Source of the DNA: a bacterium
GTDB taxonomy: Bacteria; B130-G9
Length of the DNA: 30,757 nucleotides
Direction of reading: 5' to 3'
NCBI GenBank assembly: GCA_021160245.1
Contig: JAGHCW010000048.1
Span: 1-30,757 of the forward strand
In this document: one piece after another, positions 512 to 20,500 of the stretch
How the letters are laid out: each line of letters begins with the position of its first letter
Numbering within the stretch: the first letter of the stretch is position 1
The notes under the pieces: model-generated
The model's database searches: none
What the model saw: the letters and a program-made list of their open reading frames with translations, nothing else
Told to the model about the DNA's origin: nothing
Position numbers and translations under genes: made by a program

Positions 512-1126
512 CTAATCGCGGCTCTTGCAGAATCGTCGGACCGCGCCGCAGAGAGCGCGAACGCATCTATACCTCAGATGTAGGAGCGCGCGATATAGAA
601 AGAACGTTGTCCATCCCCTTCGCGCTCCGGGGCCTTTCATCCTATCAGAAAGGGTCTGAATGGGACCAAGAAGCATAGACTCGATGAGAGCGGTGATGAA
701 TCCGGCGCCCGTGGCAAAAGGCCCCTTAAGCGCGATGGCTATGCCGCCTGAATGTATTGTGACCACCTTGCCGATTATGCTCTCTGGAGGCAATGGGTAG
801 GCCTTAACTCCATTATCCCCCTTCTGCAGGATGGACACCTTACTCCGCGTCCTTTTCAACCGGACAACGCGATGAGTAACTACGGTAGATCCGGCGTAGA
901 AAGTAATGAGGTCTCCCCGCCGAATTGCTGAGGGTGATACGTGCTCTATGACGAGCTCGTCTCCGTGCAAAATGGTCGGCAACATACTATATCCGGAGGC
1001 CTTGAGGACTATGGTCCTTCCCTTGGTCTTGAGTATCTCAAGCAGATCCTGCGCCAGCCTGTCCGGGTCCTCGTGCGTATCAAGCAGTATCCTCAGCTCT
1101 TCGCGCTGACCCTGTGAATCTACCAC
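512..1126 (-). CDS. S26-family signal peptidase-like protein (Ser/His, SipW/ER type)
   Basis: A 204-residue protein with the S26 layout. The catalytic Ser is in GYSMLP (Ser47), followed by a GDLITFY box and VTHRVV, whose His85 takes the place of the general-base Lys of LepB. This is the Ser/His arrangement of SipW- and ER-type signal peptidases. The N-terminus (about 1-40) is charged and helical with no membrane anchor. The only moderately hydrophobic stretch is about 120-152, and the tail is Arg/Cys-rich. The start is GTG; the ATG 8 bases upstream runs straight into a stop. It begins 18 bp after the C25 protease stop, so the two are probably co-transcribed. Similar S24/S26 proteins occur beside PqqD and HPr-kinase-like genes in peptide-modification loci, so a role in cleaving an exported or modified peptide is inferred. 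Its substrate is unknown. Confidence 0.8.
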   Translation of the reverse strand: MVDSQGQREELRILLDTHEDPDRLAQDLLEILKTKGRTIVLKASGYSMLPTILHGDELVIEHVSPSAIRRGDLITFYAGSTVVTHRVVRLKRTRSKVSILQKGDNGVKAYPLPPESIIGKVVTIHSGGIAIALKGPFATGAGFITALIESMLLGPIQTLSDRMKGPGARRGWTTFFLYRALLHLRYRCVRALCGAVRRFCKSRD

Positions 1127-1144
1127 GCCGTCATCTTTCCCAAA

Positions 1145-4100
1145 TTACCGAATTTCAAAATATGCCGTGCTAATGATGCCCAGCAACTGAGACATGTCAC
1201 CTGGAGCGGTCAATCCCGCATAGAATGTATAATATCCTGTCGCCGGCTCATCTGGCAATCTGATTGAGGTTGCACGGAGCTTCATCTTTACTATCTCCGG
1301 CAAATAAACTCCAATGGGGGTCGGCTCGGGCGTCCAGTACGGGAAGAAAAGGAGCGTGCCCTGGACGTCAACCGCAAGATACGCGTCCGCCTCCTGCGCC
1401 TCACCCATATTCTCGAGCATCACGTCCACGTTTATCGTCGATCCACCAAGATATACACTCTTGTCAGTCCAAGTCCAAAGCCTTGGACCGGCGGGCTTTG
1501 TCGGAACAGCAAGTGATATTGCTGGATTGCCGAAGAGCTCAAACGTCTCGACAATATCGTAAAAAGAGGAACTGTAACCAGCCCTGGCGTAAGCCCTGAC
1601 CTTGGCAACCGTGGTAGCTGCGCCCAAATAGCAGTTGTGGTCATAAAAAACGGACTCGAAAAACTCCTCCGCGAGTATCCTGTGGTTAGAAGGCGCGTCA
1701 ACGCTGGTGGGCGCCCAACAGGCCAGCGCGCCTTTTGAGGCGCTGTTGACCAAAACCTCCCCCATGCAGGACGTGTAGGTCCAGTCCGGGAAATACCCGT
1801 TGAGGCAATTGAGCATCATGGCGAACGGCAGTTTGTCGCCGTTTGACATTGAGGCAATATCACGGGTCTTCAACATGTTCTCGGCCCATTTATTGATCAT
1901 CCCGTGGCCGGCATAGCACAGAATGAGGCAGCCATCACTGACAGCCGAGATGATATCAGGCTTCGCATCCGCGCCTGATGAATAATCACCGGAATTGATA
2001 TGGAGGTCGTTGTATTCCGTCGGCAAGTATCCAGCAAGGCGATAGCTCAGCGTCGTGGCCTCGGGCGTGCTGTCCGCGACAAAGAGAACATCGTAAAGCC
2101 AATCTCCACTTGCCTCGCCGTTGTCATAAGCCAGCATCTTCGCCATGGCGGTCTCGACGTCCCTAGAGGATCCGGCGCAGATGCGGCCGATATTCATGTC
2201 CGGCAGAATGTCGGAACCGTCAATGCAGACGAACCAGTTGTCGCTCGGTGTCTGGCCGATGTGTTTACTGTGGGCTGACTCGAAAAGATGCGTAGGGATA
2301 AAATCCGTGCCCGTGCTTACGTTGTTCTTGTAGTCGATATTGGCGTCGCCAACAAGCAACACGTCGCATGGAGCGGGCGCCTCGAAGTTGAAATAGGCAT
2401 AAGAGAGAAAGTCACGTATCGCCGCGGGGTCCTTGACGCCAAAGTTGAACTCGTCGTAAATGTCCTGCACATCCACGAGCATCGTCGGCTCGGCCTTCGC
2501 TATATGGTGCTGGGCTATCTCTTCGGATGCCTCGATGTAGTTCTCGTGCGCGATGATTATCAAATCCGCATGATTGGCCGATGATTTGAGCGATGATGGC
2601 CTGTCTAGGGCGATAGGCGGTTCGGTCATCAGCTGGGAGCTCGTAACAACCATATATTCGCTCTCTAGGGAGACGTCGTCCTCGAAGATGACCGTAAACG
2701 TGCCGCCATCGGCCTGCACGGCGAAATCGCCCAGGGACTTGACGGCAAGTGGGTCTGTGATGTCGAGCACAAGAAGATCATCTGAAGAGAAGCCGCTTAT
2801 GTGGAACTCGTATCTGCCATCCAGACCAGCCTCAAATACGATGCTGTCTTGCTGAGCTACGAACGCGGCCTGGTACCTTATGCTGATGTAGTTGAGAAAA
2901 ACTGTGTCAACCAGAGAAAGGTCACCAACATATTCTACCTTCAGCACGTTGTCACCGTTGATCAAAAGCGACTGTGGCCCCGTGACGTTGTGTTCGAACT
3001 CGATTCTGCCGTTCCACGTCTGGTCGTCGATCAGGACGTCATTGAGGTATATCCTCGTGTGGTGGTCCGGGTCATCCGATGTGTCCGTGAATCCCCACAT
3101 CGCAATCTGTATCTCGGCGACATAATCTCCTGCCGCGACATTCTGGATGTTGAACGGGAAGGAAGATATGTCAGGCGCCGTGGTTTTAGTCCAGAACCAA
3201 TGGTCCACACCTACACATTCTGGATAGGGCATCTTCTGATAGTAGGACTCATCCGACTCGAGGTGGAGGTTATGAGGGTATGTCTCCGGCTGAGACGCGC
3301 CATGGGGAGTCACGTTAACCGATTGCATTCTTGGGGCAGTTTCCTCGTCGAATGACAGCCAATAGATGTTCTCTTTCGTATATTCGCTCTTAATGCTCTC
3401 GGCGAAAAAGACGAGATAATCGTCTGTATCGAAGGTGCCATCGCCGCCGTCCGCAACAATAATCGCCATATTCTGACCCAGATGGCTCATGCAAACGCCT
3501 TCTGGATCGATAGTTGAGATCGTTACGCCTGCCGCGGTCAGTTCGGCGCCGGTGATTTTGTATATACCGTCATCCTGGATCGCTATCTTGCATTGCTCGG
3601 CTCCGGGTTCGAGCGCGATGGTGCTTGGTCGGCTCCCATAGTCCGGAACTTGAGCCGTTCGGACGTCGGTGGGATTCACGACGCAGCTTCTGACCATATT
3701 CGACATCGCAAATGATGGCCCGCTGTTGCCCTCAGAAACGCCTGCCACTTCGGGCCAGTCCATACTCGGTCTATTGGTAAAATAGACCTTGAAAACCGCC
3801 TCTGAGATCACATTGACGGTTCCCATGACAGGATTGAATCTGGCGGGATACGCCTTGATTCTAATAAGCGGCTGGCCACGCAATATCCCAAAGAACTCCG
3901 CCTCAATTGCCTCTTCGGGATAGTAAGCATTCGTCCTATAGAGCGACTCGTCAAGCGCAGGCAAGCGCTCGATCATCACATCACCGTCCGTCTCCACAAA
4001 CACCACATCTTCTGACGGCGCAATATTGTAGCCAAAGAGTGTGTCCTCCACTGCGGATTTCAGTGAAACAGACGGCTCGCACGGATAAGGCGCAGCAATC

Positions 4101-4372
4101 AAGAAACCGTAAAACGGCAGATTCGGCTTGCCCGGGACACCTATGCTCTCGCAGCCGGCAACGTCCAGCGTGTCATATCGATTGCCGTTCAGAGAGGTCC
4201 GATCGTGCATGGGTGGTCCGCATCGAAACTCAAGCGTCATATAATCGTCAGTGCTCTCAAGAACGAGAACCTGGCAGGATTCTGCTCGAAGCCCGCGGGG
4301 CGATGCGCCTATAAGGAGCGAGATTGCCAAGACAAAACATAAAGCAAAATAATTCGCACATCTACCTTCCAT
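1145..4372 (-). CDS. Secreted gingipain-family (C25) cysteine protease
   Basis: A 1,075-residue exported protein. A signal peptide (about 1-30, hydrophobic core LCFVLAISLLIG) precedes a beta-rich propeptide-like region (about 30-240) and beta-sandwich segments to about 590. The C25 catalytic domain spans about 600-955, and an Ig-like C-terminal domain about 960-1075. The catalytic pair is visible: His823 in CYAGHG and Cys856 in LNCLNGYF. Their spacing of 33 residues equals that of His211/Cys244 in Porphyromonas RgpB (family knowledge). I see no type IX C-terminal sorting domain. The start is ATG with a GAGGAG ribosome site 8 bases upstream. A 306-bp gap separates it from the HPr-kinase-like gene upstream, so it may have its own promoter. 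In this context it could mature a modified or secreted partner protein; that is inference. Confidence 0.88.
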   Translation of the reverse strand: MEGRCANYFALCFVLAISLLIGASPRGLRAESCQVLVLESTDDYMTLEFRCGPPMHDRTSLNGNRYDTLDVAGCESIGVPGKPNLPFYGFLIAAPYPCEPSVSLKSAVEDTLFGYNIAPSEDVVFVETDGDVMIERLPALDESLYRTNAYYPEEAIEAEFFGILRGQPLIRIKAYPARFNPVMGTVNVISEAVFKVYFTNRPSMDWPEVAGVSEGNSGPSFAMSNMVRSCVVNPTDVRTAQVPDYGSRPSTIALEPGAEQCKIAIQDDGIYKITGAELTAAGVTISTIDPEGVCMSHLGQNMAIIVADGGDGTFDTDDYLVFFAESIKSEYTKENIYWLSFDEETAPRMQSVNVTPHGASQPETYPHNLHLESDESYYQKMPYPECVGVDHWFWTKTTAPDISSFPFNIQNVAAGDYVAEIQIAMWGFTDTSDDPDHHTRIYLNDVLIDDQTWNGRIEFEHNVTGPQSLLINGDNVLKVEYVGDLSLVDTVFLNYISIRYQAAFVAQQDSIVFEAGLDGRYEFHISGFSSDDLLVLDITDPLAVKSLGDFAVQADGGTFTVIFEDDVSLESEYMVVTSSQLMTEPPIALDRPSSLKSSANHADLIIIAHENYIEASEEIAQHHIAKAEPTMLVDVQDIYDEFNFGVKDPAAIRDFLSYAYFNFEAPAPCDVLLVGDANIDYKNNVSTGTDFIPTHLFESAHSKHIGQTPSDNWFVCIDGSDILPDMNIGRICAGSSRDVETAMAKMLAYDNGEASGDWLYDVLFVADSTPEATTLSYRLAGYLPTEYNDLHINSGDYSSGADAKPDIISAVSDGCLILCYAGHGMINKWAENMLKTRDIASMSNGDKLPFAMMLNCLNGYFPDWTYTSCMGEVLVNSASKGALACWAPTSVDAPSNHRILAEEFFESVFYDHNCYLGAATTVAKVRAYARAGYSSSFYDIVETFELFGNPAISLAVPTKPAGPRLWTWTDKSVYLGGSTINVDVMLENMGEAQEADAYLAVDVQGTLLFFPYWTPEPTPIGVYLPEIVKMKLRATSIRLPDEPATGYYTFYAGLTAPGDMSQLLGIISTAYFEIR

Positions 4373-4678
4373 CGTAATGTCTCCTCAATACGAGGCAAGT
4401 CGCCTCTTCATAATTCTCGGGCGAGCAAATTGAGCGGTGTCGGCCTCTCCCGGTTATCCCTATTGGACGAGTTATTCTGTTCTCTCTTATCGACGAAGGC
4501 TCCTGCGATAAATAGAGCTGCAATATAACATTACTGCTAAAGCGGATTTGTGCAAATACAACGGGAGCCGGTGAAATCGACCGATTAAGGCTCGCTGGGG
4601 ACGTAACCTGCCATAGCCCTTTGGCAAAGCGTTCCGGGGCATTTCTGTCCCCGCCGAGATTGATGGCCGCCCGCTTGG
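4373..4678 (-). other. 306-bp gap between HPr-kinase-like gene and C25 gene
   Basis: No ORF is credible here. A hairpin CGGGG/CCCCG (4635-4653, 9-base loop) lies 26 bases after the HPr-kinase-like stop but lacks a T-run, so it is at most a weak attenuator or a REP-type repeat. Further down on the minus strand, a TTGCAC hexamer followed by AT-rich TAATGTTATATT sequence could be a poor promoter for the protease gene. It does not match consensus well. Confidence 0.35.
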
Positions 4679-5887
4679 CTATTGTGACTTGGAGACAGTT
4701 TCCTCAATTATGTCAACCATCTCATCGAGTCGGCCGACGACTAGCTCATAGCATTTTGTCTTTCTAATGACCTCCGCAAGCGCAAGATACATCTTCGTTA
4801 CACTTCCTCCGAAACCTTTTCTCAAGATGGCCGACCTCGCGCCGCAGCGTGCCCTGGTCAGAAGCTCAAACATGGCTCTTGAATACGGCATCGGTATCAG
4901 CTGGGGCGGCCTGTTGAAATCGGGTTTGCCGTGCTCGCCTTTCACTGTATCGAATATCAGGACGTTGTGCGCGTAGCAGATATCCTCAAGCCTAGCGAGA
5001 ACCGGGTAACCGCTCTGAACCCGAAGGCGTATAATAGGGAACTTGGCCTCCGATGTGTCTCCCGTGACCTCGGCTGATTCCACGCCATCCACCTCTCGCA
5101 TCTCAGCCAACATACCATCAGAAATCTCACTCGGTATGAGATAGAGCACATTGGCCATAGAAAACTGAGAAGCATCCTCCTCGGCGGAAGGTGTCAGGAA
5201 GAAAATGAACTTCGCAGGACAAGGCGTCGATGCCATGGCGCCACTCAACTCGCCAATGTCCAACACCTTCTTAACGCCGCCTCCGATCATCGGAATCGTG
5301 TCAAGATTTGAAAAGTCCACTCCGTCTAACTTGATCTCGGCGCCCTCTCGCATTCCCAATCCTCTCGGGAATGGATACACCATGTGATCATGTTGGTGGA
5401 TTGCAGCTATCTCATCGGAAAACAGCGAGAATCCCCGACCAATGAGCGAGAGCGTCACAGTCGTCTTGCCGCAGCGGGCAGCGCCGGGAATGATTATCCC
5501 ATTGCCTTTGTACTCCACTGCCCCGGAATGTATCAAGAAGTGGTTTTTTAGGCTTGCGATGAAGGAATTGAAGACGGTCATATAAGAGAAGCCCGGGAAA
5601 ATATCCCTGTTGCGAACGATATTCACTTTGCCATCGGCGACAACAACCGGGCAGCCGTCCACAACGGGCGTCTCAATCACGTAGTATGTTTCAACCGGTT
5701 CTTCCGCCGCTTCTGGCGCCTCTATGATGAAGTGGGAGTACATCTTCCGGAAGTAGGAGAGAACGGTTGGAGAATCGGAACTCACACAAAATTGGAACTC
5801 GAATACGCGATAGTATTCCTTGTGCTTGCACAACTTGCCGAATTTCTTGATAACCTGCTCCGGACTCGGAACGTCAATTTGCGACAA
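4679..5887 (-). CDS. HPr kinase-like P-loop protein of a PqqD/radical SAM cassette
   Basis: A 402-residue cytoplasmic protein. A Walker A motif, GAARCGKTT, lies at residues 135-143 (Lys141), followed by GFSLFSDE, which matches the P-loop and acidic segment of HPr kinase/phosphorylase C-terminal domains. The N-terminal HPr-kinase regulatory domain is absent; instead there is a mixed alpha/beta region (1-120). Such HprK-like proteins recur next to PqqD and radical SAM genes (lasso-type and SynChlorMet-type loci), where some phosphorylate a precursor peptide. The kinase role here is inferred. No ATG is available: the frame is open only from the TGA that ends the radical SAM gene 54 bases upstream. 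The start is taken as TTG at 5887 because GGAGG sits 7 bases before it. The gene follows the radical SAM gene by 51 bp. Confidence 0.8.
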   Translation of the reverse strand: MSQIDVPSPEQVIKKFGKLCKHKEYYRVFEFQFCVSSDSPTVLSYFRKMYSHFIIEAPEAAEEPVETYYVIETPVVDGCPVVVADGKVNIVRNRDIFPGFSYMTVFNSFIASLKNHFLIHSGAVEYKGNGIIIPGAARCGKTTVTLSLIGRGFSLFSDEIAAIHQHDHMVYPFPRGLGMREGAEIKLDGVDFSNLDTIPMIGGGVKKVLDIGELSGAMASTPCPAKFIFFLTPSAEEDASQFSMANVLYLIPSEISDGMLAEMREVDGVESAEVTGDTSEAKFPIIRLRVQSGYPVLARLEDICYAHNVLIFDTVKGEHGKPDFNRPPQLIPMPYSRAMFELLTRARCGARSAILRKGFGGSVTKMYLALAEVIRKTKCYELVVGRLDEMVDIIEETVSKSQ

Positions 5888-5938
5888 TCTGAATCCTCCG
5901 TCTCTTCGGACCCAATGAACAACTACAATTGAACAACA

Positions 5939-7327
5939 TCATATCAGTATATTCTCGGACTTCAATTGTCCGGGACTTGGAAGCCCAGACAAAACGTCGA
6001 AGAAGAGGTCCTCAAAGAGCTCGCGCCGAAGCCGACAGAGGTTATCCTCCGAAAAGAACGTGCCCTTCTCGGCATACGTCATGCCCGGACAGCCGGCCTG
6101 GCAGAAGTTCTTGAACGGACACGCTTTGCAGATTTCGATCTTCTCTTGCCTGTTCGAAAATATCTTCATAAGGCTCATCATCTTATCGGATTCGGCGGCC
6201 TCCTGCAAACTCATGTCCCAGATTGTGCCTATCTCGAACTCCGGTCTAGCCAATACGGAGCAGGGATATATCCGCCCCTCGGGATCCACCTCCAGCATCT
6301 CCCCAACATGACACCACATCGTACCCTCCGGGACATCAAGAAAGAGACCCGGGACACCTCCCGCTAACGTAATGTCTATACTGCTATCGGCCAACATTCG
6401 GTAGTACTCTCTGTAAAACGCTCGATAGTTCTCATTTGACGGGTTCAGACTGTCATAATTCTCGTCTGCCCGGCCAATCTGAGCGAGGCACAAGAATCTG
6501 ATGCCACCCACTCCGAGGCTCTGCCCGAGCTCGACGAACGGCTCCAGGTCCTCGTTGGGTCGGCCCATAATCGTCCGGCAGAGCTCCACACTGTCTTGCG
6601 CGCCGTGTTTCTGCAATAGTTCAATGCCCCTCAAGGCCGCGGCAAACGAGCCTTTGCCCCTGACAGCGTCGTGAACATCAGCCGTTGCGCCGTCAAGACT
6701 TATTTGGTAAGTCAAGCGCGAGCCGGCGAATTTCGCGGCCAAATCGTCTGTGATCAGCGAGCCATTGCTTGAGAGAATTGTCTTTATCCGTTCCGCAGCA
6801 TAGTGGATTATGTCAACGATGTCTCCTCGGAGCAAAGGTTCCCCACCAGTAATTGCGATTGATGCGCCATCCCTACTATTCAGCTGATCGACAATTGATT
6901 TTATATCCTCGAATTTCAGCCGGTCTTCTGCGTGCAGAACACGAACGGCGCCACAATGCGCGCACCTCAGGTTGCAGCGTCCGGTTACCGTTAGATGCGT
7001 TCGTTCGACGGTTCTTGGATGAACCTCTTGAGGCGATTGGGCATCGTCGCCGAACAGCTTTGAATCAACAAGGCTCTGTAAAAATGCGTCAACGTCAGCC
7101 GAGACCATCTCCACGCTTGCGCCGTAATGATTCGCCACTGCCAATTTGATGTCGTGGACAGAGTGCTGGCCATCGCATAGTGTCGAGATAAAAAACCCGG
7201 TCTCGTTTACGAGAGCGAATCTTGGATGCCTCGGATGCAAGAGCAGATGCCGGCGCGCGTGGGATAGCTTAAACAGCCCTTCCGGTAGTTTCGGTCGCTC
7301 CCCATAGGTCGTCTTGCGCTCGGTCAA
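5939..7327 (-). CDS. Radical SAM/SPASM peptide maturase with N-terminal PqqD-like domain
   Basis: A 462-residue protein in three parts. Residues about 10-95 form a PqqD-like peptide-recognition domain (contains FALVNETGFFISTLCDG). The radical SAM core has CNLRCAHC at Cys118/Cys122/Cys125 and a following ITGGEPLLR motif. A C-terminal SPASM region is Cys-rich (CKACPFKNFCQAGCPG and nearby Cys residues) and would bind auxiliary 4Fe-4S clusters. The closest well-known relatives are PqqE-, AlbA- and SCM-type maturases that form carbon-carbon or thioether links in ribosomal peptides. The start is TTG, with a GGTGG-like site just upstream and no in-frame ATG before the preceding stop. It begins 31 bp after the small PqqD-like gene. 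The target peptide is not identified. Confidence 0.9.
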   Translation of the reverse strand: MTERKTTYGERPKLPEGLFKLSHARRHLLLHPRHPRFALVNETGFFISTLCDGQHSVHDIKLAVANHYGASVEMVSADVDAFLQSLVDSKLFGDDAQSPQEVHPRTVERTHLTVTGRCNLRCAHCGAVRVLHAEDRLKFEDIKSIVDQLNSRDGASIAITGGEPLLRGDIVDIIHYAAERIKTILSSNGSLITDDLAAKFAGSRLTYQISLDGATADVHDAVRGKGSFAAALRGIELLQKHGAQDSVELCRTIMGRPNEDLEPFVELGQSLGVGGIRFLCLAQIGRADENYDSLNPSNENYRAFYREYYRMLADSSIDITLAGGVPGLFLDVPEGTMWCHVGEMLEVDPEGRIYPCSVLARPEFEIGTIWDMSLQEAAESDKMMSLMKIFSNRQEKIEICKACPFKNFCQAGCPGMTYAEKGTFFSEDNLCRLRRELFEDLFFDVLSGLPSPGQLKSENILI

Positions 7328-7358
7328 TTCACCACCGCTCCAAATAAGTCATTCAGTG

Positions 7359-7631
7359 TTAATCCTCCAAAATGCCGTCTAGTTTGAACTTTTCAATGGC
7401 ATCATTGACGTCACTCTCGACATCACGTCCAGGTGGGGCGTCGAACATGCCCTCAATTTCCACTAGAATCTGAGCCAGCGAATGCGTGCCGTCGCACAAC
7501 TCCCAAATGGCCGCCGCCGTTTCGTTCAGCACCGTCACCTTATCGCTGTCTGGACTGTAGAGCAGTATCTCCGATCCCATCTGAGACCTCTCCAAACCGG
7601 ACTTGGCTCTGGGCTTATATTGATCATCCAT
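7359..7631 (-). CDS. Stand-alone PqqD-family protein (peptide-recognition element)
   Basis: A 90-residue protein with the PqqD pattern: a first beta-hairpin region, then VLNETAAAIWELCDGTHS and a helical ILVEIEGMFD segment ending near FKLDGILED. PqqD folds bind the leader of a ribosomal precursor peptide and present it to the maturase. The start is ATG at 7631, chosen over a TTG 18 bases upstream because GGGAGGT lies about 9 bases before the ATG. It is the first gene behind a strong promoter at 7719-7748, with an untranslated leader of about 80 bases. The leader contains a small ACAGG/CCTGT hairpin but no ORF. Together with the fused domain in the next gene, the cassette has two PqqD-like modules. 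Confidence 0.85.
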   Translation of the reverse strand: MDDQYKPRAKSGLERSQMGSEILLYSPDSDKVTVLNETAAAIWELCDGTHSLAQILVEIEGMFDAPPGRDVESDVNDAIEKFKLDGILED

Positions 7632-7718
7632 TACAAACAGACCTCCCAAGATATGAACTCACGTCCCGAATGTCTTTCTAGCACAGGTTGACAGGCTGCA
7701 ATCCTGTTCCACTTGACT

Positions 7719-7748
7719 CTTATACCCCAAATCACACAGAACTGTCAA
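7719..7748 (-). promoter_or_regulatory. Sigma70-type promoter for the PqqD/radical SAM operon
   Basis: On the minus strand, TTGACA (7743-7748) is followed after 18 bases by TATAAG (7719-7724), a full-consensus -35 and a five-of-six -10. Transcription would begin near 7711, about 80 bases before the PqqD start codon. Confidence 0.65.
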
Positions 7749-7889
7749 TAACGAGAATCTGACCAAATAGTCAGAATAATTATGAGGGGCGCGCTCTTGA
7801 GGTTGTCAGCGTATGGATAGTTCACGGCGTGTAACCGTATTCCCTAGAATAGGCGAGTGAACCGGATGCGGGCACTTATTGGCTTAGCG

Positions 7890-7923
7890 TAAAAAAAGAA
7901 CAGGGAACCAATCTGAGTTCCCC
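7890..7923 (-). terminator. Intrinsic terminator on the minus strand
   Basis: GGGAAC (7903-7908) pairs with GTTCCC (7917-7922) across an 8-base loop. Read on the minus strand, it is followed by TGTTC and seven T (7897-7891). On the plus strand the run would be A, before the hairpin, so it works only for minus-strand transcripts. No long ORF precedes it, so it must end a short gene or RNA lying at higher coordinates. Confidence 0.65.
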
Positions 7924-7942
7924 GCATCACATTTTGCCGACT

Positions 7943-8026
7943 TTAGATAGCCTGACAGAAATTTCCGCCGGCTAAAGAAGCCCAGCACCTCTGCTCATAA
8001 ATCCAACCTTCCGTTGGGTTCTGCAT
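7943..8026 (-). CDS. Possible 27-residue peptide just before the terminator
   Basis: ATG at 8026 opens a 27-codon frame ending in TAA, 20 bases before the terminator hairpin. The peptide contains WIYEQRCWASLAGGNFCQ: two Trp, two Cys and a Gly-Gly, an unusual composition for so short a frame. The ribosome site is poor (GGTG about 7 bases upstream). It lies upstream of, and on the same strand as, the peptide-maturation operon, so a modified-peptide precursor is conceivable. Equally the region could be a non-coding RNA: the DNA over 7937-8030 can form several stems, for example CTTTAG/CTAAAG and CCAAC/GTTGG. Low confidence. Confidence 0.2.
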   Translation of the reverse strand: MQNPTEGWIYEQRCWASLAGGNFCQAI

Positions 8027-8496
8027 CAGCAGGCACCGAGACCAACGCTCTTAAGTTAGAAGTCCAGTTCTTACTCGACAAGTCCAAGATGATAGCATTG
8101 GCATACTAGGAGCAACTCCCGACAAATGCTTCCCTCTTCCCTGTCGAATTCTGGCAATCACCAATTCCCGAGGTCCCAAAACCACAACTTACGTCTCGCT
8201 ATTGATTAAGCATGTTGCGTGCCATTCTGCGATATAAGTGTAATATAGGCTCATAGATCGCCTTATGGTGGGGGCATACGCGTCTGGGGACATCTTCCAC
8301 TAATTGCCTTGTGTTGACCCGACAACTTGAATGTGCGCCGGAACCGTCACATTATGTTACCAACAAGATCCTTGACGGCGACTCTTGCCCATAATAGCCG
8401 CTGTTTCCCACCAGTAACATATTATGACTCCCCTGCTGGGCAGTGTCACTCGCGGCTATATCCGTATCTTCTGACACAGGAGAACCAATCCGAAAA
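8027..8496. other. Spacer with no convincing gene
   Basis: Both strands lack ORFs with good starts and protein-like composition. On the minus strand there are only frames of about 30-37 codons, for example from a GTG near 8158 ending near 8047, without clear ribosome sites. A minus-strand transcript ending at the 7890-7923 terminator probably begins somewhere here, but I could not match it to 6S, tmRNA, SRP or a known riboswitch. Confidence 0.4.
8215..8244 (+). promoter_or_regulatory. Possible promoter for the glycosyltransferase operon
   Basis: TTGCGT (8215-8220), an 18-base spacer and TGTAAT (8239-8244) give a weak -35 and a five-of-six -10 on the plus strand. They lie about 340 bases before the glycosyltransferase start. 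No better plus-strand promoter was seen in the spacer. Confidence 0.25.
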
Positions 8497-13273: not shown

Positions 13274-16200
13274 CTATTGCCAAACGGTGAGCGCCGGCCA
13301 TGTGCCCAAATTGCCACTTCGATCGACAACGTTAATACTCACAGCGTATGTTCCGGGGATAATTCCGGCGCTAATCTGCTGGTCAAAGACATAAACGCCA
13401 TCGCCATCCAGGTCAACCATGTCCGCTCCCAAAGCTAAGTCGAAGTAGAAGAGCGCAAAATTGACCTCCTGAATGTCAATCGCTCCTTGCCTGTCGCCCA
13501 CCCTCGCAAACACAGTAAGGCGTCCGCCGCCTTCCGACGTGAGTCTTGTGAAGCCATATCCACCCTCCAGAACAACTGGAGCGTCAGGATTGTACATTTC
13601 AGGCTTAAGAGGAATCGGGCGGCCGTGAGTCTGGCCAAAAGGCGCGTGCCTCGACGGTTCAATCACGTCAAATCCAGCCTTAACTAGGGGCGTAAATGGG
13701 TTGCCGAGGAGCCCGGTTGGCAATCCCTCGCTCCTTATCTCAAGATAGGGCCAGATCTCGCTACGGTTGCCCGCTCCGTCTCTTGCGATTAGCTCGTACG
13801 TGTGACGTGCAGCCTGCATCTCTCCTGGCGGGACGTTCATCTGGATAGTAAATATCCCATCCCCGGCCACCTCGTCTCCGCCTAGTCCGTTGTCAAGGAG
13901 ATACAAGTCGAGGGAGCCGATATTCTGCTCGAATACCTCAACGTACTCCACGTTGTCCTCCTCGTCCCATACCCGCGCAAGAAGCCGCATTACGCCACCT
14001 TCGCTGGCGGTTACGACGCTGTTGAAGAAGCCTCCGCTAAGTATCCAGGGGGCGACCTCATCCCGACCGCCTATTGCATAGAGGTTCCAGTCAAGACTGC
14101 CGAAATAAACCATGTTGCCCTTGCCAATCGCCGGCGATGAATTGACCGCGTCATAGGTCTTAAATGACCATAAAACCTCGCCGCCGCGGTCTAAACAGAA
14201 GAGCTCTCCTCCGTCGGAATCTCCCTGGCTCGTGCCCACGTATATGAGCCCTCTCGCATCCACAGCGCATGAGCCGACTATTTCTTCCCCTAGATCCGTG
14301 GCCCAATTAAGCTTACCGTCCTTGTCGAGACAATAGAGCTTATGGTCAAGTGATCCGACGTAAAGATTCCCATCCTTATCCAATGCAGGCGAAGAGCGCA
14401 CCCAGCTTCCCGTCTCGTATGACCAAAGAAGATTTCCCTCGGGATCAACGGCATAGACGTGCTGGTCATTAGAGCCAAAATAGATCGTGCCATCTGGACC
14501 GACACAGGGCGATGACGTAATCCAGTGCGAGGTATGGTACAGAACAAGGCGATACTGGCCCCCGCTGTCCAGATTGTGAATAGCATGTAGGTCTCCGTCC
14601 ATCGCGGTAACGTATATGATATCCCGATCGTGCAATCTTACGACTGCTGGGGACGTATTCATCCACGAGCCTATGTTGAAGCTCCAGAGCTTTTCGCCAG
14701 TATCGGTGGCCAAGGCATAGAGATAGCCATCGTTTGAGCCAACATAAAGCGATCCGCTTGAACCAAGAACGGGCGATGAGCGCACCACTCCACCTGTCGG
14801 AGTTCGCCAAACTAGCTCGCCGTCGCGGACAGCATAGACAGAACCGTCATCAGAGCCGAAGTAAACAACATCGTCAAAGCCTACGGCCGGCGAGGTTACG
14901 ATTTTATCGCCGCTAGCATAGCTCCATAGTGGGACGCCATTCATATCGAACGCATACAATGACCCGTCCAAGGAGCCGACATAAAGATTGCCTGTGCTGC
15001 CGATGGCAGGCGAGGATACGATACCACCGCCGGCATGGCCGACCCACCTCAGGGTGTGCATGTACGGCCCTTCGAGCATCGTGAGTCCTGTATGATTCCT
15101 ATTGTTGCGGAACATGGGCCACGGGCTGCCGCTTCCACTGGCGGTCACTGTTGGACCGTGGAACCACCCTTCGGCAGGCAATCGACCGAGGCCGCCCCTG
15201 AAATCGGTCGCTCCAAATACAAACTCATATTCGCCGATGTTAGTAAGCTCGATCTGGTAGGTGAATGTATAGAAACCGGGATTCTCCTGCGAGCCTTTGA
15301 AGTCCTCAATTGAGTAAATCTCCGGTATCGACATGCCGGGGCCATTCAACATCAGATAGATGCCGGCAAGCATTTCCATGTCGGGATCGGCCACATCGAC
15401 AGTGAATGTGAACGTTGAGCCGATTATTGCTGAAGCGGGCGTCACGTATCCCGACTTCAAATCTGGTGGCCTGTTGTCCGGGGACACAACGGGGCCCTCG
15501 AATGTGCCATCTGTCGGAAGCCTGACTGAGTCGTTGTCCATGTCTCGGAAGGCGAAGTAGTAGTTGTGCTCGCCAACGGACAGCTGCGTCTCAAAGCGGT
15601 ATTCGTCAATTCCGGGACCGTAGTAATCCTCTCGATAGAGCGTCATCGTGTATGGGCTGCCGTCGAGTACTACCCAAGTATTATCGGGCGAGCTCGCTGG
15701 ATCGCATCGATAGCCGACCGAGAAGGTAAACATGGTTGTTACATCGCCCTTCTCGGGAAAGACGACACCGTCCGAGAGGGCCGGAACCGCGTCGCTCTTT
15801 TCACCAATTACGCTGATCGTTCGGTCCCATGATCCGAAGCATACATAATTGCCGTCCCATCGGTGGTTGTAGTTGACATCAACGTAGATCTCGTCCCCAT
15901 CGCAGACGCCATCACCATTTATGTCGTCGAATGGCTCCGCGGGGCCAATTGCGGGCGAAGAAGTTACCTTGCCTCGAGTTTTGTACTTGAAAACCTCCAT
16001 CCCAGTGCTACTAACGCAATAGAGGCAGAAATCTGAACAGCCGAAATAGACTTTGCCCTTCGCGTCAATTGCCGGAGAGCTCTCTATCTCACCGCCAGCC
16101 TGAAAGCGCCATCTCTCTGCTCCGCCGGGATACAGAGAAAAAAGAAGCCCCTGCTGCGTTCCGAAGTAAATGTTCCCATCGATGTCAACCGCCGGAGAGG

Positions 16201-17026
16201 AGCCAATATTGAGGCAGCCGGTTCCAAAGGACCAGACTTCTTCCCCATTGCTCAGTGAGAGTGCGTGAACCACGCCGCCATAAGTTACGACATAGACGAG
16301 ATCGTCATGGACAGTTGGCGAGGCGCGGACTTGGCTTAGTGTTGGGAATGTCCAGCGGATTGTGCCCTCGCGGTCGAGGGCGATAACCTGACCGTCAGAG
16401 TTGGCAACGATAATTGAGCCGTCCTGAGCGACAGCCGGAGGGGCCTCAAAGCCGCTTTCAGATGCGAACGTCCATCGTATTTCGCCATCTCGCTCAAGAA
16501 CGACGAGGCTTCCATCTGCAAGCGTGACAACGATGGCCCCATCCGCCATCAAACACGGGGATGTCTTTATCGGCGAGGCGCCGGAATAGACCCACTTAGT
16601 ATCCACGCTATTCATGTACGAGTTGTTTGAGTCGATACAGAGAAGACGCCCGTCCATAGTCGGAAGATAAAGCATGCCGTCAGGGGATAGACAGGGAGTT
16701 CCCTCAATGTCTGTTCCCACGTCAAGCCACCATCGAAGCCATAGGTCCGATTCGAGGCAATAGAACATGCCCAGATAGCTTCCGATTAGGATGCTGCCGT
16801 CTGGGGCAACTATACAGGACGAGCGAACCCAGTATGCAGCCTCGAACTCAAAGAGCTGCTCCGGGACGCTTGGCCCAATACCTTCACTGTAGCCCATCCT
16901 CTGAGCATTTTGTTGCAGCATACGCCATTCAACATCGCTTGAGGCGCAAAAAGCGCTGCCTGCGCAAAAGGCAACACCCAATAGCACCAGACCAAGAGAA
17001 AGAACTCTCCACCTTGCGCTTCCCAT
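13274..17026 (-). CDS. Secreted double PQQ-type beta-propeller protein
   Basis: A 1,250-residue exported protein with a signal peptide about 1-28 (LSLGLVLLGVAFCAGSAFCA). Residues about 35-415 are a first propeller of PQQ-like/BamB-like repeats (pattern SSPAIG..G.IYFG...G.LY....G...W.F). Residues about 420-625 are two Ig-like domains, and about 630-1000 a second propeller. Residues 995-1250 are two related C-terminal beta modules. Inside the first propeller a calcium-type loop (DDINGDGVCDGDE then VDVNYNHRWDG, about 365-400) is inserted in a blade. Catalytic residues for a PQQ dehydrogenase are not apparent, so it is probably structural or binding. The start is ATG with GGAGGG 8 bases upstream. 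It begins 42 bp after the giant protein's second half and is probably co-transcribed with it. Confidence 0.82.
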   Translation of the reverse strand: MGSARWRVLSLGLVLLGVAFCAGSAFCASSDVEWRMLQQNAQRMGYSEGIGPSVPEQLFEFEAAYWVRSSCIVAPDGSILIGSYLGMFYCLESDLWLRWWLDVGTDIEGTPCLSPDGMLYLPTMDGRLLCIDSNNSYMNSVDTKWVYSGASPIKTSPCLMADGAIVVTLADGSLVVLERDGEIRWTFASESGFEAPPAVAQDGSIIVANSDGQVIALDREGTIRWTFPTLSQVRASPTVHDDLVYVVTYGGVVHALSLSNGEEVWSFGTGCLNIGSSPAVDIDGNIYFGTQQGLLFSLYPGGAERWRFQAGGEIESSPAIDAKGKVYFGCSDFCLYCVSSTGMEVFKYKTRGKVTSSPAIGPAEPFDDINGDGVCDGDEIYVDVNYNHRWDGNYVCFGSWDRTISVIGEKSDAVPALSDGVVFPEKGDVTTMFTFSVGYRCDPASSPDNTWVVLDGSPYTMTLYREDYYGPGIDEYRFETQLSVGEHNYYFAFRDMDNDSVRLPTDGTFEGPVVSPDNRPPDLKSGYVTPASAIIGSTFTFTVDVADPDMEMLAGIYLMLNGPGMSIPEIYSIEDFKGSQENPGFYTFTYQIELTNIGEYEFVFGATDFRGGLGRLPAEGWFHGPTVTASGSGSPWPMFRNNRNHTGLTMLEGPYMHTLRWVGHAGGGIVSSPAIGSTGNLYVGSLDGSLYAFDMNGVPLWSYASGDKIVTSPAVGFDDVVYFGSDDGSVYAVRDGELVWRTPTGGVVRSSPVLGSSGSLYVGSNDGYLYALATDTGEKLWSFNIGSWMNTSPAVVRLHDRDIIYVTAMDGDLHAIHNLDSGGQYRLVLYHTSHWITSSPCVGPDGTIYFGSNDQHVYAVDPEGNLLWSYETGSWVRSSPALDKDGNLYVGSLDHKLYCLDKDGKLNWATDLGEEIVGSCAVDARGLIYVGTSQGDSDGGELFCLDRGGEVLWSFKTYDAVNSSPAIGKGNMVYFGSLDWNLYAIGGRDEVAPWILSGGFFNSVVTASEGGVMRLLARVWDEEDNVEYVEVFEQNIGSLDLYLLDNGLGGDEVAGDGIFTIQMNVPPGEMQAARHTYELIARDGAGNRSEIWPYLEIRSEGLPTGLLGNPFTPLVKAGFDVIEPSRHAPFGQTHGRPIPLKPEMYNPDAPVVLEGGYGFTRLTSEGGGRLTVFARVGDRQGAIDIQEVNFALFYFDLALGADMVDLDGDGVYVFDQQISAGIIPGTYAVSINVVDRSGNLGTWPALTVWQ

Positions 17027-17068: not shown

Positions 17069-20000
17069 TTATTCAACGTGGAAGTATGGCCACGCGAGGC
17101 TTTCGTTTCCGTATATGTCAGTAGCAATAATCTCTAGGATGTAGTCATTTGGAATGAGTCCTGACGGAACATCATCCAGCACAAGCACAAAGGCGCCGTC
17201 ATCCTCGACATCGCCGGGAACGCCAGAGGCTATGCTATCGGACAGGAATAGCCCGCTGCCGATCCGCTCGCCTCCCTCCAGCATCAGTTCTACGGTGTCG
17301 ATTGCACCCCAGCCGGCGAACTTGGCGTCGTCATCTCTAACTCGGGAGAAGGCGCAGAACTTGCCGCCATTTGAGTGCATGAACGTGTAATCCCAGTTCA
17401 GGAAGCCGGTCATCATGACGACCGGTCTTGTGAATGCCGATGGACCACCCTTCGCGCCTCGCTTCAGAGCGACCTGCGGGGTTGAGTGAGTCTTCGTCTC
17501 CATTCCTGTACTTATACTTAGTGCCCTCATGTCGCGTTCGAACGGATCCTGCAACTCCCCGGCGGAGAAGAAGTCCTCATAGGGACTGACCCGGACCCTC
17601 GGCCACGGGACACTGTGATAGCCCAGACTGTCCACAGCCTCAATCGTTACAAGGTATGACCCTCTTGCGACCCCCGGGGCAAAATTGTATGAGAATGAAT
17701 AGACGCCATCGCCCGGCTGCCAGTCGCCATTGACACCAGCATCATTCAATTCGCCCCAAGGCTCACCCTCAAGGCTGATAATGACCTGCACAATGTCATC
17801 ATCGCCGTCGGGGTCAGCAACCTGGGCTATGGCCTGGAAGTCTCCCCCTCGGTCACTCGTCACTTTGCTATATTCATGAGATGCAAGCTCAACAACCGGA
17901 GGATAGCCCGCGTCGCCAGTAAGCGCAACACGTCCGGGAAGCAGCGGATAGCCTTCTTCAGCGCCGCCAGTGTCCAGTGGAATAATCGTTATCTCACCCT
18001 CGGCTTCGCCGAACTTCTGGGCTTGGAAGGACACAACTAGTGGATATGTGTCTTGAGCCTGAATCATCAGCGGGAGCGCGGGAGCGTTGAACGAGAAATG
18101 CCCACTGCCCTTAGTAACATGAATTTCCTCTATCGTAAGAGGCGACCAGCCCGTGTTCTGAATATTCAGTGTCTTCGTATTTGGCAGCGCGCCTATCGTT
18201 CCCGCCTTCGGCGTCCTATCAAACTGAATCGATTCGGGCACTGTCATCCTGGGGTAGCAACGTCCTGTCTTGAAGCTCCATGAGGCGGGCGGGAGCATCG
18301 CATTGCCCTCAAGATCACTAACGCTGACCTCAACAGCAACATCGGAGCAATGTTCCAGATTCCCCTGGTATTTCACAACAGCGCCAAAGGGAATGGTTGT
18401 CCAGGCAAGCTGATGCTGGACAATCTGACCATTAACTCTCATCTGGACGCTATTCTCGTCGATACCGGAGTTGAATTCTATACCATTCTCTATGTCAGGC
18501 ATGTCTGAGATAGAGACGGAAATCAACGCGTCAATACCCACATTCGTCTCACCATCCCTGGGAGAGAACGTCTCCCGGTAGTAGATGGGTGGGATAATGT
18601 CCACGAGCGTGAACCTATAGGACTCGACGCCCGTGTTCGGATTTGGAGTCGCAAGATCGGAGGCAGAGAGGTCAACGTCAACGATGGTGTTGGTGTTGAA
18701 GTCAACAAGCGGATCGTAAACGACATTGAATCCCTTCGCAAGCGGGAAGATGCTGACGTTCGGACTCTGTAGAGATATATCCTCCCCTTCCACCGACATC
18801 GTCAGCGTCGTTAAATCCACACCTTCCTCTTCGTCCTTAACAGAGAACTCGATCGAAGTGTCGGGTAATACGCCGGTCTCGCCCGCAAATGGATGTAGTC
18901 CATCAAAGAAGGGCTTTGCGGCATCCTCACCCGTCGTGAACGACCAGCAATACCACTCCATCCAATTGGCTCCGGTCGCGTCGTCACCACCGAGGTCCGC
19001 CGCGCGGATGCATATTCTCAGGTCTTGATCATAGGTCAAAACCAGCCCAATCGGCGCATAGATTCTGTAGCCCCCGTAGCCGTCAGGACTCGTCCAATTC
19101 TCGAATGTAAGCGATGTCCAATCAACGGGATTGCCATCCACCGTCACTTCGACGCTTGTGGTATCAACACCGCTATGGGTGTCGAAGATGACTATGCTTA
19201 CCTCTGATGTGTTTATTGGCACGTCGGTAGCGTCCGGCTGGGGGCTCTCTGAGCCGTCATAGACCATTGGCGCATACCAATCGATATCCGTTGTGAACGA
19301 ATACTGCAGTTTGCTCTGATTCGGCTCTGGGAAGGCCAAGTCAGAAGCGATTACCTCGATCACAACTTTCTTATTGTAAGCGAACGGCGCCGGTGGGTAG
19401 TAAACCACCGAATAACCGGATGCGTCCTCTTCCTCGCTCAAGGTCGGCACGGCGTAAACATGGGCGATCGCGCCCGTCGACTCGATCCCATCGAATACTA
19501 ACTGGCCATCAATGAGGAGCTGCACCGTATCTCCGTTTATGCCGGTACCTCTGTCGAGCACATCGAAAGCGATCGGTCCGTCAACTGGAATGTTGCGAGC
19601 GTTCCGAGGCGGGCTCTGATTGGCCAGGAATGGGGCTGACGTATCGCGCTCCACGGTCGTAAACGCAAACGTGTCGCTGCCTTTATTGCCGCCTCCATTT
19701 CCTCGACCGTTTGCGAGCAGGTCCTCCGCCTCGACCTGAACGTCCACGACCTGGCCATAGCCGAATGGTTGTTTGGGTTCATATTCTATTGTGTAGCCTG
19801 ACTGCACGCCACCGTTGTTGACCGACACGAGGGAGGGCATCACAACGGCGCCGGTCGGGGTTGACTGCATGTAACCCGTATCAGTCAGCAAATTATAGCC
19901 GTCGGGTATGTCAGGATCAACTTTGTAAACCTTGTCGTTCCCGGCGTCGGCCACCCAGCATAGACCAACTTGGTTATCGAGATTACGATAGGAGTTGACC

Positions 20001-20401
20001 GCGACTTTCGCGGGAGAGCCAAAACCACTTATCGTCGCAGCAAGGGCGCCATCTGGGTCCATGCGAACTATCTGCCCGGTTCCTGACAAGGCTGCCCAGG
20101 CTACGCCGGATGCCTGCTCAACGGCCACGCCCGACGGATTGCTGCCATCCGCAAAGTGGACCTTCTTGTCCATTTCGGGATAGTTATTAGCGTTTACATC
20201 ATAGCCATCAGGCGTCTCGGCGTCAAGTCGGACGACCCTGTCGTTGCCGCTATCTGCTACCCAAATCGCGCCGGGATAATAGCTGAGCGCGATGCAACTG
20301 GGGTCGCTGAAGCCACGGATTCTTCTTAGAATAGCGGTCCCGCCGGGAGAGAGTTTCAGAATCTCCCCATGCCCAGAGTCGGCAACCCAGCACATACCCA
20401 C
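17069..20401 (-). CDS. Downstream half of the giant surface protein (after in-frame TGA)
   Basis: A 1,110-codon frame with no signal peptide, beginning mid-propeller. Residues 1-165 are NHL repeats (CWVADSGHGEILKL, IWVADSGNDRVVRLD). Residues about 185-245 are the second half of an Ig-like domain, and about 263-710 four full Ig-like domains, each with a 'GIN..TVQLLIDGQ'-type strand and ending in a '.FTT' strand. Residues about 720-800 are a HYDIN-like sandwich (TKTLNIQNTGWSPLTIEEI). Two C-terminal beta modules lie at about 835-945 and 1000-1110 (ends AWPYFHVE). The nominal start is GTG, but the frame is open upstream to the TGA at 20498 and is the same frame as the upstream ORF. It is therefore very unlikely to be an independent gene: an exported architecture without an export signal would not be delivered. 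Confidence 0.7.
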   Translation of the reverse strand: MGMCWVADSGHGEILKLSPGGTAILRRIRGFSDPSCIALSYYPGAIWVADSGNDRVVRLDAETPDGYDVNANNYPEMDKKVHFADGSNPSGVAVEQASGVAWAALSGTGQIVRMDPDGALAATISGFGSPAKVAVNSYRNLDNQVGLCWVADAGNDKVYKVDPDIPDGYNLLTDTGYMQSTPTGAVVMPSLVSVNNGGVQSGYTIEYEPKQPFGYGQVVDVQVEAEDLLANGRGNGGGNKGSDTFAFTTVERDTSAPFLANQSPPRNARNIPVDGPIAFDVLDRGTGINGDTVQLLIDGQLVFDGIESTGAIAHVYAVPTLSEEEDASGYSVVYYPPAPFAYNKKVVIEVIASDLAFPEPNQSKLQYSFTTDIDWYAPMVYDGSESPQPDATDVPINTSEVSIVIFDTHSGVDTTSVEVTVDGNPVDWTSLTFENWTSPDGYGGYRIYAPIGLVLTYDQDLRICIRAADLGGDDATGANWMEWYCWSFTTGEDAAKPFFDGLHPFAGETGVLPDTSIEFSVKDEEEGVDLTTLTMSVEGEDISLQSPNVSIFPLAKGFNVVYDPLVDFNTNTIVDVDLSASDLATPNPNTGVESYRFTLVDIIPPIYYRETFSPRDGETNVGIDALISVSISDMPDIENGIEFNSGIDENSVQMRVNGQIVQHQLAWTTIPFGAVVKYQGNLEHCSDVAVEVSVSDLEGNAMLPPASWSFKTGRCYPRMTVPESIQFDRTPKAGTIGALPNTKTLNIQNTGWSPLTIEEIHVTKGSGHFSFNAPALPLMIQAQDTYPLVVSFQAQKFGEAEGEITIIPLDTGGAEEGYPLLPGRVALTGDAGYPPVVELASHEYSKVTSDRGGDFQAIAQVADPDGDDDIVQVIISLEGEPWGELNDAGVNGDWQPGDGVYSFSYNFAPGVARGSYLVTIEAVDSLGYHSVPWPRVRVSPYEDFFSAGELQDPFERDMRALSISTGMETKTHSTPQVALKRGAKGGPSAFTRPVVMMTGFLNWDYTFMHSNGGKFCAFSRVRDDDAKFAGWGAIDTVELMLEGGERIGSGLFLSDSIASGVPGDVEDDGAFVLVLDDVPSGLIPNDYILEIIATDIYGNESLAWPYFHVE

Positions 20402-20497: not shown

Positions 20498-20500
20498 TCA
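20498..20500 (-). other. Single in-frame TGA splitting a 3,411-codon gene
   Basis: The ORFs 20498-27304 and 17069-20401 share one frame: 27304 to 20401 is exactly 2,301 codons. The only interruption is this TGA at codon 2269. The 32 codons between it and the nominal GTG restart contain no other stop and read as plausible propeller linker (GGNGGSEGPLSAPKWVAVTS). A change of one base would give Arg, Gly or Trp. Only a four-base-pair TACC/GGTA stem is seen downstream, so I find no support for a selenocysteine element. Confidence 0.85.

Follow-up and report, generated by a model that had tools for sequence, protein, structure and literature searches.

A five-gene PqqD/radical SAM/C25 protease cassette with candidate precursor peptides dispersed beside secreted-protein genes

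Precursors of ribosomally synthesized and post-translationally modified peptides (RiPPs) are normally sought beside the genes of their modifying enzymes, and where none is present the cassette is dismissed as an orphan. Contig JAGHCW010000048.1 of the bacterial assembly GCA_021160245.1 (GTDB lineage B130-G9) raises the question of what such a cassette works on. At positions 512 to 7631 of its minus strand lie genes for a PqqD-like protein, a radical S-adenosylmethionine (SAM) enzyme with a SPASM domain, an HprK-like kinase, a C25 cysteine protease and an S24/S26-type peptidase. The window analyzed here is the entire contig (C17; 30,757 bp) of a 3.43-Mb assembly (genome G000). The original prediction, made from the window alone, had assigned the five genes to a peptide or protein modification and secretion pathway with no precursor in sight, whose substrate would be unlinked, tiny or one of the large exported proteins of the same window. 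Our results favor an unlinked substrate: a precursor profile search returned nothing on the window contig and 29 candidates scattered elsewhere, nearly all of them in line with the gene of a secreted protein.

The lead came from three distant genomes, G044 and G060 of another small phylum (to which G061 and G062 also belong) and G142 of a third. Their cassettes contain a small open reading frame (ORF) of 41 to 58 aa with a lasso-like YxxPxV leader, and the three ORFs share the pattern Y..P.VITY...D.....LG..QAC followed by a second cysteine. The first profile was built only from the G044 and G060 ORFs and was searched over whole genomes; a refined profile gave the final set. It comprises 29 short ORFs in four genomes of the window family, about 25 of them full length (37 to 44 aa) and 3 partial or weak matches. 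Five are in the window genome (two on contig C27, one of these at 47897-48013, and one each on C154, C174 and C202), and 7, 15 and 2 are in its relatives. Precursor occurrence follows that of the cassette: all six searched cassette genomes have precursors, and a search of G061 and G062, in which the cassette was not found, gave none with a threshold as loose as E ≤ 10.

The family precursors combine a YxxPxV leader with an almost invariant core, GP-S-[LIV]-S-C-T-G-F-G-G (GPSxSCTGFGG), and usually end in a second Cys. The leaders resemble the YxxPx[LV]-type (YxxPxL) motif reported for lasso peptides (PMC10368454). An AGGAG-like ribosome-binding site precedes the start codon in nearly all full-length copies. 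All 24 of the 24 DNA cores compared differ, while the peptide hardly changes: pairwise differences in the ten core codons numbered 296, 135 and 1620 at codon positions 1, 2 and 3, respectively. This third-position bias indicates that the peptide is under selection for one sequence. Together, the 29 ORFs have what is expected of a RiPP precursor family, a short peptide with conserved leader and core.

We also looked for a precursor next to the PqqD gene. Six-frame ORFs of ≥15 aa upstream of it in four genomes had nothing convincing in common beyond the beginning of PqqD itself and a DNA element described below.

The neighbors of the precursors are secreted proteins with varied bodies and a common C-terminal domain (CTD) of about 100 residues. 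The bodies include right-handed beta-helix-like repeats and C25-propeptide-like regions, and FG-GAP repeats in G060. For 27 of the 29 precursors a CTD gene is no more than 2.2 kb away, always on the same strand, as opposed to at most 2 to 4% expected from position alone. The precursor is mostly downstream of the secreted-protein gene, by less than 200 bases. The two precursors without a nearby CTD gene are both partial matches; downstream of one is a secreted-protein gene that the contig end truncates, and the other lies near a contig start. A CTD gene is also found inside the cassette, between the precursor and the radical SAM gene in G044 and G142 and after the HprK gene in G060. The large exported proteins of the window, put forward earlier as possible substrates, fare poorly on this count, with no precursor paired to them and no CTD match on the contig.

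The CTD is predicted to be a fibronectin type III (FN3)-type beta-sandwich followed by a disordered tail (AlphaFold2; predicted local distance difference test score of 86). The model matches FN3 domains with Z scores of 10 to 12 and a root mean square deviation of about 2 to 2.7 over 86 to 105 residues. A C-terminal Arg is enriched in these proteins (20 of 32, versus 10 of 90 other long ORFs; P = 5e-8, uncorrected for relatedness). The tail after the FN3 domain was considered as a common sorting tag and rejected, as it is too variable and partly runs into apparent repeat DNA. In L158, L164, L221 and L222, a heptamer-like repeat reading NCQLPTANCQLPT lies between CTD gene and precursor, and it lengthens some of the CTD tails. 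Another C-terminal end, roughly G..G..WP...V[WE], is common to large exported proteins and to a further C25 paralogue (window positions 13274-17026 and 17069-20401; L254, 3622-7728; L256, 3646-7599) and may define another C-terminal domain family among these genomes.

All five cassette proteins proposed originally were recovered with hidden Markov models (HMMs) of Pfam and NCBIfam, and their characteristic residues are conserved (Table 1). The stand-alone PqqD protein scored 46.6 bits against the Pfam cut-off of 23.4, and the N terminus of the radical SAM protein is a second PqqD domain (42.4 bits). These are the only PqqD matches in the whole window genome and supply the RiPP recognition element (RRE) typical of RRE-dependent radical SAM/SPASM maturases. 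The radical SAM and SPASM domains scored 89.2 and 30.2 bits in Pfam; CxxxCxxC and the full set of seven SPASM cysteines are invariant across five orthologues, and the nearest solved structures are anSME, the CteB-type 5wgg and SkfB. In the HprK-like protein the C-terminal domain remained under its Pfam cut-off (26.7 versus 33.3 bits), with HprK_rel_A the better match; Walker A GxxxxGKT and D158 are invariant in the orthologue alignment. The C25 protease has both a peptidase domain (245 bits) and a C25 propeptide (59.9 bits), carries an N-terminal hydrophobic segment, and finds its best PDB matches in PorU (6za2) and RgpB (gingipain R), with both of which its catalytic His and Cys align. The last protein matches Peptidase_S24 (27.1 bits; cut-off, 23.3) and the archaeal-type/SipW-type signal peptidase model (55.3 bits; cut-off, 51.85), with invariant Ser47, His85 and Asp104 in the orthologue alignment. 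Its best 19-aa hydropathy window is 1.45, and from sequence it is likely a cytoplasmic leader peptidase. Beside its gene, at the contig end (window positions about 60-300), are CCCGAATTCATTCGGG-like palindromes in inverted copies, which would be a dispersed repeat or an assembly breakpoint.

Table 1. Genes of the cassette, listed in the direction of transcription, with the family models that support each assignment
Feature	Position	Strand	Supporting match
PqqD-like peptide-binding protein (RRE), stand-alone, 90 aa from ATG	7359..7631	-	PF05402, 4.5e-12
PqqD(RRE)-radical SAM-SPASM peptide-modifying enzyme, 462 aa	5939..7327	-	PF04055, PF05402, PF13186
HprK-like P-loop kinase, 402 aa	4679..5887	-	TIGR04352 (HprK_rel_A), 1.5e-15; PF07475, 4.6e-6
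C25 cysteine protease (gingipain/PorU-like), exported, with C25 propeptide, 1075 aa	1145..4372	-	PF01364, 1.7e-72; PF08126, 2.4e-16
S24/S26-type serine peptidase, 204 aa, without transmembrane segment	512..1126	-	TIGR02228, above cut-off

The cassette is conserved. Its radical SAM subfamily gave high scores in 7 of 386 sampled genomes (488 to 797 bits), the next matches reaching at most 214 bits. Nitrospirae matches (L039-L041) were rejected as cassette relatives, being a different kind of radical SAM protein without the cassette. The three carriers of the same family as the window genome (G001, G002 and G003) have radical SAM proteins 53 to 56% identical to that of the window. All five genes occur in the same order in G001; the cassette is spread over two contigs in G002, and in G003 it runs up to the C25 gene, where the contig ends. 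In distant G044 the whole cassette recurs in the order PqqD, small ORF, secreted protein, radical SAM, HprK, C25 and S26, with identities to the window of 28% (radical SAM), 23% (HprK) and 29% over about 1000 aa (C25). G060 and G142 have the front part, up to the contig end. A separation of the C25/S26 pair from PqqD and radical SAM in related genomes would have contradicted the original prediction; the relatives and a second phylum keep the linkage, and the prediction therefore survives this test. The gap between the HprK and C25 genes is enlarged to 306 bases in the window, versus 16 bases in G001 and G003; it was considered as a precursor site and rejected, its frames being without the precursor motif.

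We think it rather probable that the five genes form a single RiPP-type maturation center for the dispersed precursors, whose modified peptide partners the secreted CTD proteins. At the level of sequence this reading builds on gene content, conservation, the precursor family, selection on the core and the operon-like pairing. The peptides are scattered, each in a row with a large secreted-protein gene, so the cassette seems to serve a set of exported proteins. Since every copy has essentially the same core and its own secreted-protein neighbor, the product most likely partners the CTD proteins stoichiometrically (as a bound subunit, tag or anchor) and is not a diversified natural product. In such a pathway the two PqqD/RRE domains would bind the leader, the radical SAM/SPASM enzyme would crosslink the core, most likely through a Cys thioether, and the HprK-like kinase would phosphorylate a Ser or Thr. 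The soluble S26 peptidase would then cut off the leader, and the exported C25 protease would process CTD proteins outside the cytoplasm.

Several points weigh against this reading. The crosslink and the kinase target are deduced from protein family; the first Cys is absent from one copy (L222) and the last Cys from another (L162); and no peptide exporter was seen. The CTD occurs in 49 of 386 genomes, widely without the cassette, and about half of the CTD genes in the window family lack a neighboring precursor. In G044, one precursor stands against at least 11 CTD proteins, an argument against a strict one-to-one supply in that genome. C25 proteases were present in 4 of 4 CTD-rich genomes checked, all of them without a match to the cassette radical SAM protein. 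Both CTD and C25 thus occur widely outside the cassette and may be tied to the peptide only in part. In favor of a link between C25 and the CTD proteins, on the other hand, G060 and G061 each have a CTD gene that directly adjoins a C25 gene without radical SAM (L250 and L252), an independent tie between the two. Given the wider spread of CTD and C25, the peptide part of the system seems to have been added to an older pairing of C25 and CTD.

How the C25 protease might act on its partners bears on a more specific possibility, which we put forward tentatively: the radical-modified peptide could be a common tag or anchor that the PorU-like C25 enzyme joins to many FN3-CTD proteins. By analogy, this would be protein display with a ribosomal peptide in the role that anionic lipopolysaccharide (A-LPS) has in the type IX secretion system (T9SS). 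PorU, a C25 transpeptidase that anchors CTD cargo (PMC8545088), is the nearest precedent for attaching something to such proteins. The cassette C25 itself cannot be called a T9SS sortase, because it scored 257.5 bits against a cut-off of 420 with the PorU sortase model NF033707 and because SprA (TIGR04189) had no match in G000 to G003 or G044, assemblies that are 83 to 98% complete (it was found in G142).

Two other explanations appear unlikely, and to a similar degree. The product may simply be a RiPP natural product or a signal peptide, with identical copies raising the dose, C25 trimming outside the cell and CTD genes as mere frequent neighbors. Leader, RRE, radical SAM enzyme, kinase and peptidase are indeed the usual RiPP set, and C25 and CTD also occur apart from the cassette. 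However, almost all copies line up on the same strand with a CTD gene, far above the positional expectation, a CTD gene is again part of the cassette in two other phyla, and neither an exporter nor an immunity gene was seen. Alternatively, the crosslinked peptide may serve a larger secreted protein as a subunit, either structural or carrying a cofactor, with no ligation by C25, as in quinohemoprotein amine dehydrogenase (QHNDH). There, the small gamma-subunit QhpC is crosslinked by QhpD and loses its leader to a cytoplasmic protease before it joins larger periplasmic subunits (PMC7876137). By analogy, this is the nearest precedent for a radical SAM-modified small partner of a larger protein, and the small peptide is encoded beside a larger secreted partner here too. 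On the other hand, the core lacks a Trp for a cysteine tryptophylquinone (CTQ) cofactor, the partners differ widely in their bodies (beta-helix-like, FG-GAP and C25-propeptide) and have only the FN3-like end in common, and no QhpF-like exporter was seen.

That C25 and S26 are a separate maturation unit for secreted proteins, merely adjoining a PqqD/radical SAM/HprK unit, is improbable: C25-CTD pairs without radical SAM (L250 and L252) would fit, but both the family and a distant phylum have retained the joint gene order, and the precursors go together with CTD genes. A SynChlorMet- or lasso-type cassette, the affiliation suggested at first, has very little in its favor despite the YxxPxL-like leader and weak matches to HprK_rel_A and the SynChlorMet families, since all scores fell far under the NCBIfam cut-offs (ScmE, 120.6 versus 400 bits; ScmF, 89 versus 400; ScmD, 31 versus 100) and 0 of the 5 cassette proteins scanned with Pfam and NCBIfam matched an asparagine-synthetase-like lasso cyclase or a B2 transglutaminase-type protease.

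The tiny ORF that had been offered as a substrate (7943-8026; 27 aa) falls within a conserved element at about 7890-8230 on the minus strand, which has a T-run terminator and adjoins a glycosyltransferase gene in four genomes (the window; L140, L141 and L142). In G001 and G003 the element stays with that gene, at a distance from the cassette. Its best block is 80 to 86% identical over 70 bases in the four genomes, the folding z score is -2.8, and Rfam gave no match at E ≤ 1. By sequence it is probably a structured noncoding RNA with a terminator. Of the original interpretation, a peptide-modifying pathway with an unlinked substrate thus stands; the tiny ORF, the exported proteins of the window and the SynChlorMet type do not. 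Elsewhere in the window, an NHL-repeat reading runs on over the 96-base gap between the minus-strand ORFs 17069-20401 and 20498-27304; a frameshift or an assembly error may have divided a single protein here.

A maturation center that supplies CTD proteins with a modified peptide would give radical SAM peptides a testable new role in maturing or displaying surface proteins, and PorU-like C25 enzymes a possible function beyond type IX secretion. Here a profile from a distant phylum located the precursors in trans, with near-identical cores coupled to secreted proteins. We found no paper that combines C25 or PorU with radical SAM, HprK or RiPPs in such a way.

Among known systems, paeninodin-type lasso cassettes, with their PqqD-like B1 protein and HprK-like kinase, share the YxxPx[LV] leader, the stand-alone PqqD-like RRE and the kinase; the present cassette has radical SAM/SPASM and S26 proteins instead of the B2 protease and cyclase, adds C25 and CTD cargo, and has dispersed precursors. 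The sactipeptide and ranthipeptide maturases (StsB, CteB, SkfB and PapB) are alike in the RRE-radical SAM-SPASM enzyme and a short Cys-containing core, whereas the core sequence here is new, the product is tied to secreted proteins, and the window enzyme scored 116.5 bits versus 625 for StsB and 84.9 versus 340 for PapB. QHNDH biogenesis (QhpD/QhpC/QhpE) likewise involves a SPASM enzyme, a small peptide beside a larger exported partner and cytoplasmic leader removal, but with another protease class, a quinone-precursor Trp and neither the many varied partners nor the added kinase and C25. The T9SS PorU and gingipains have in common with this system the C25 domain and its His/Cys pair, the C25-type propeptide and cargo with a common C-terminal domain; they differ in that the PorU model is under its cut-off here, SprA was not found in the window family, and the CTD is FN3-like and not a T9SS tail. 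In prochlorosin-type RiPPs, one enzyme serves many unlinked precursors with diverse cores. The cassette described here resembles them in having one maturation center and many precursors in trans, but its cores are near-identical and paired with secreted proteins.

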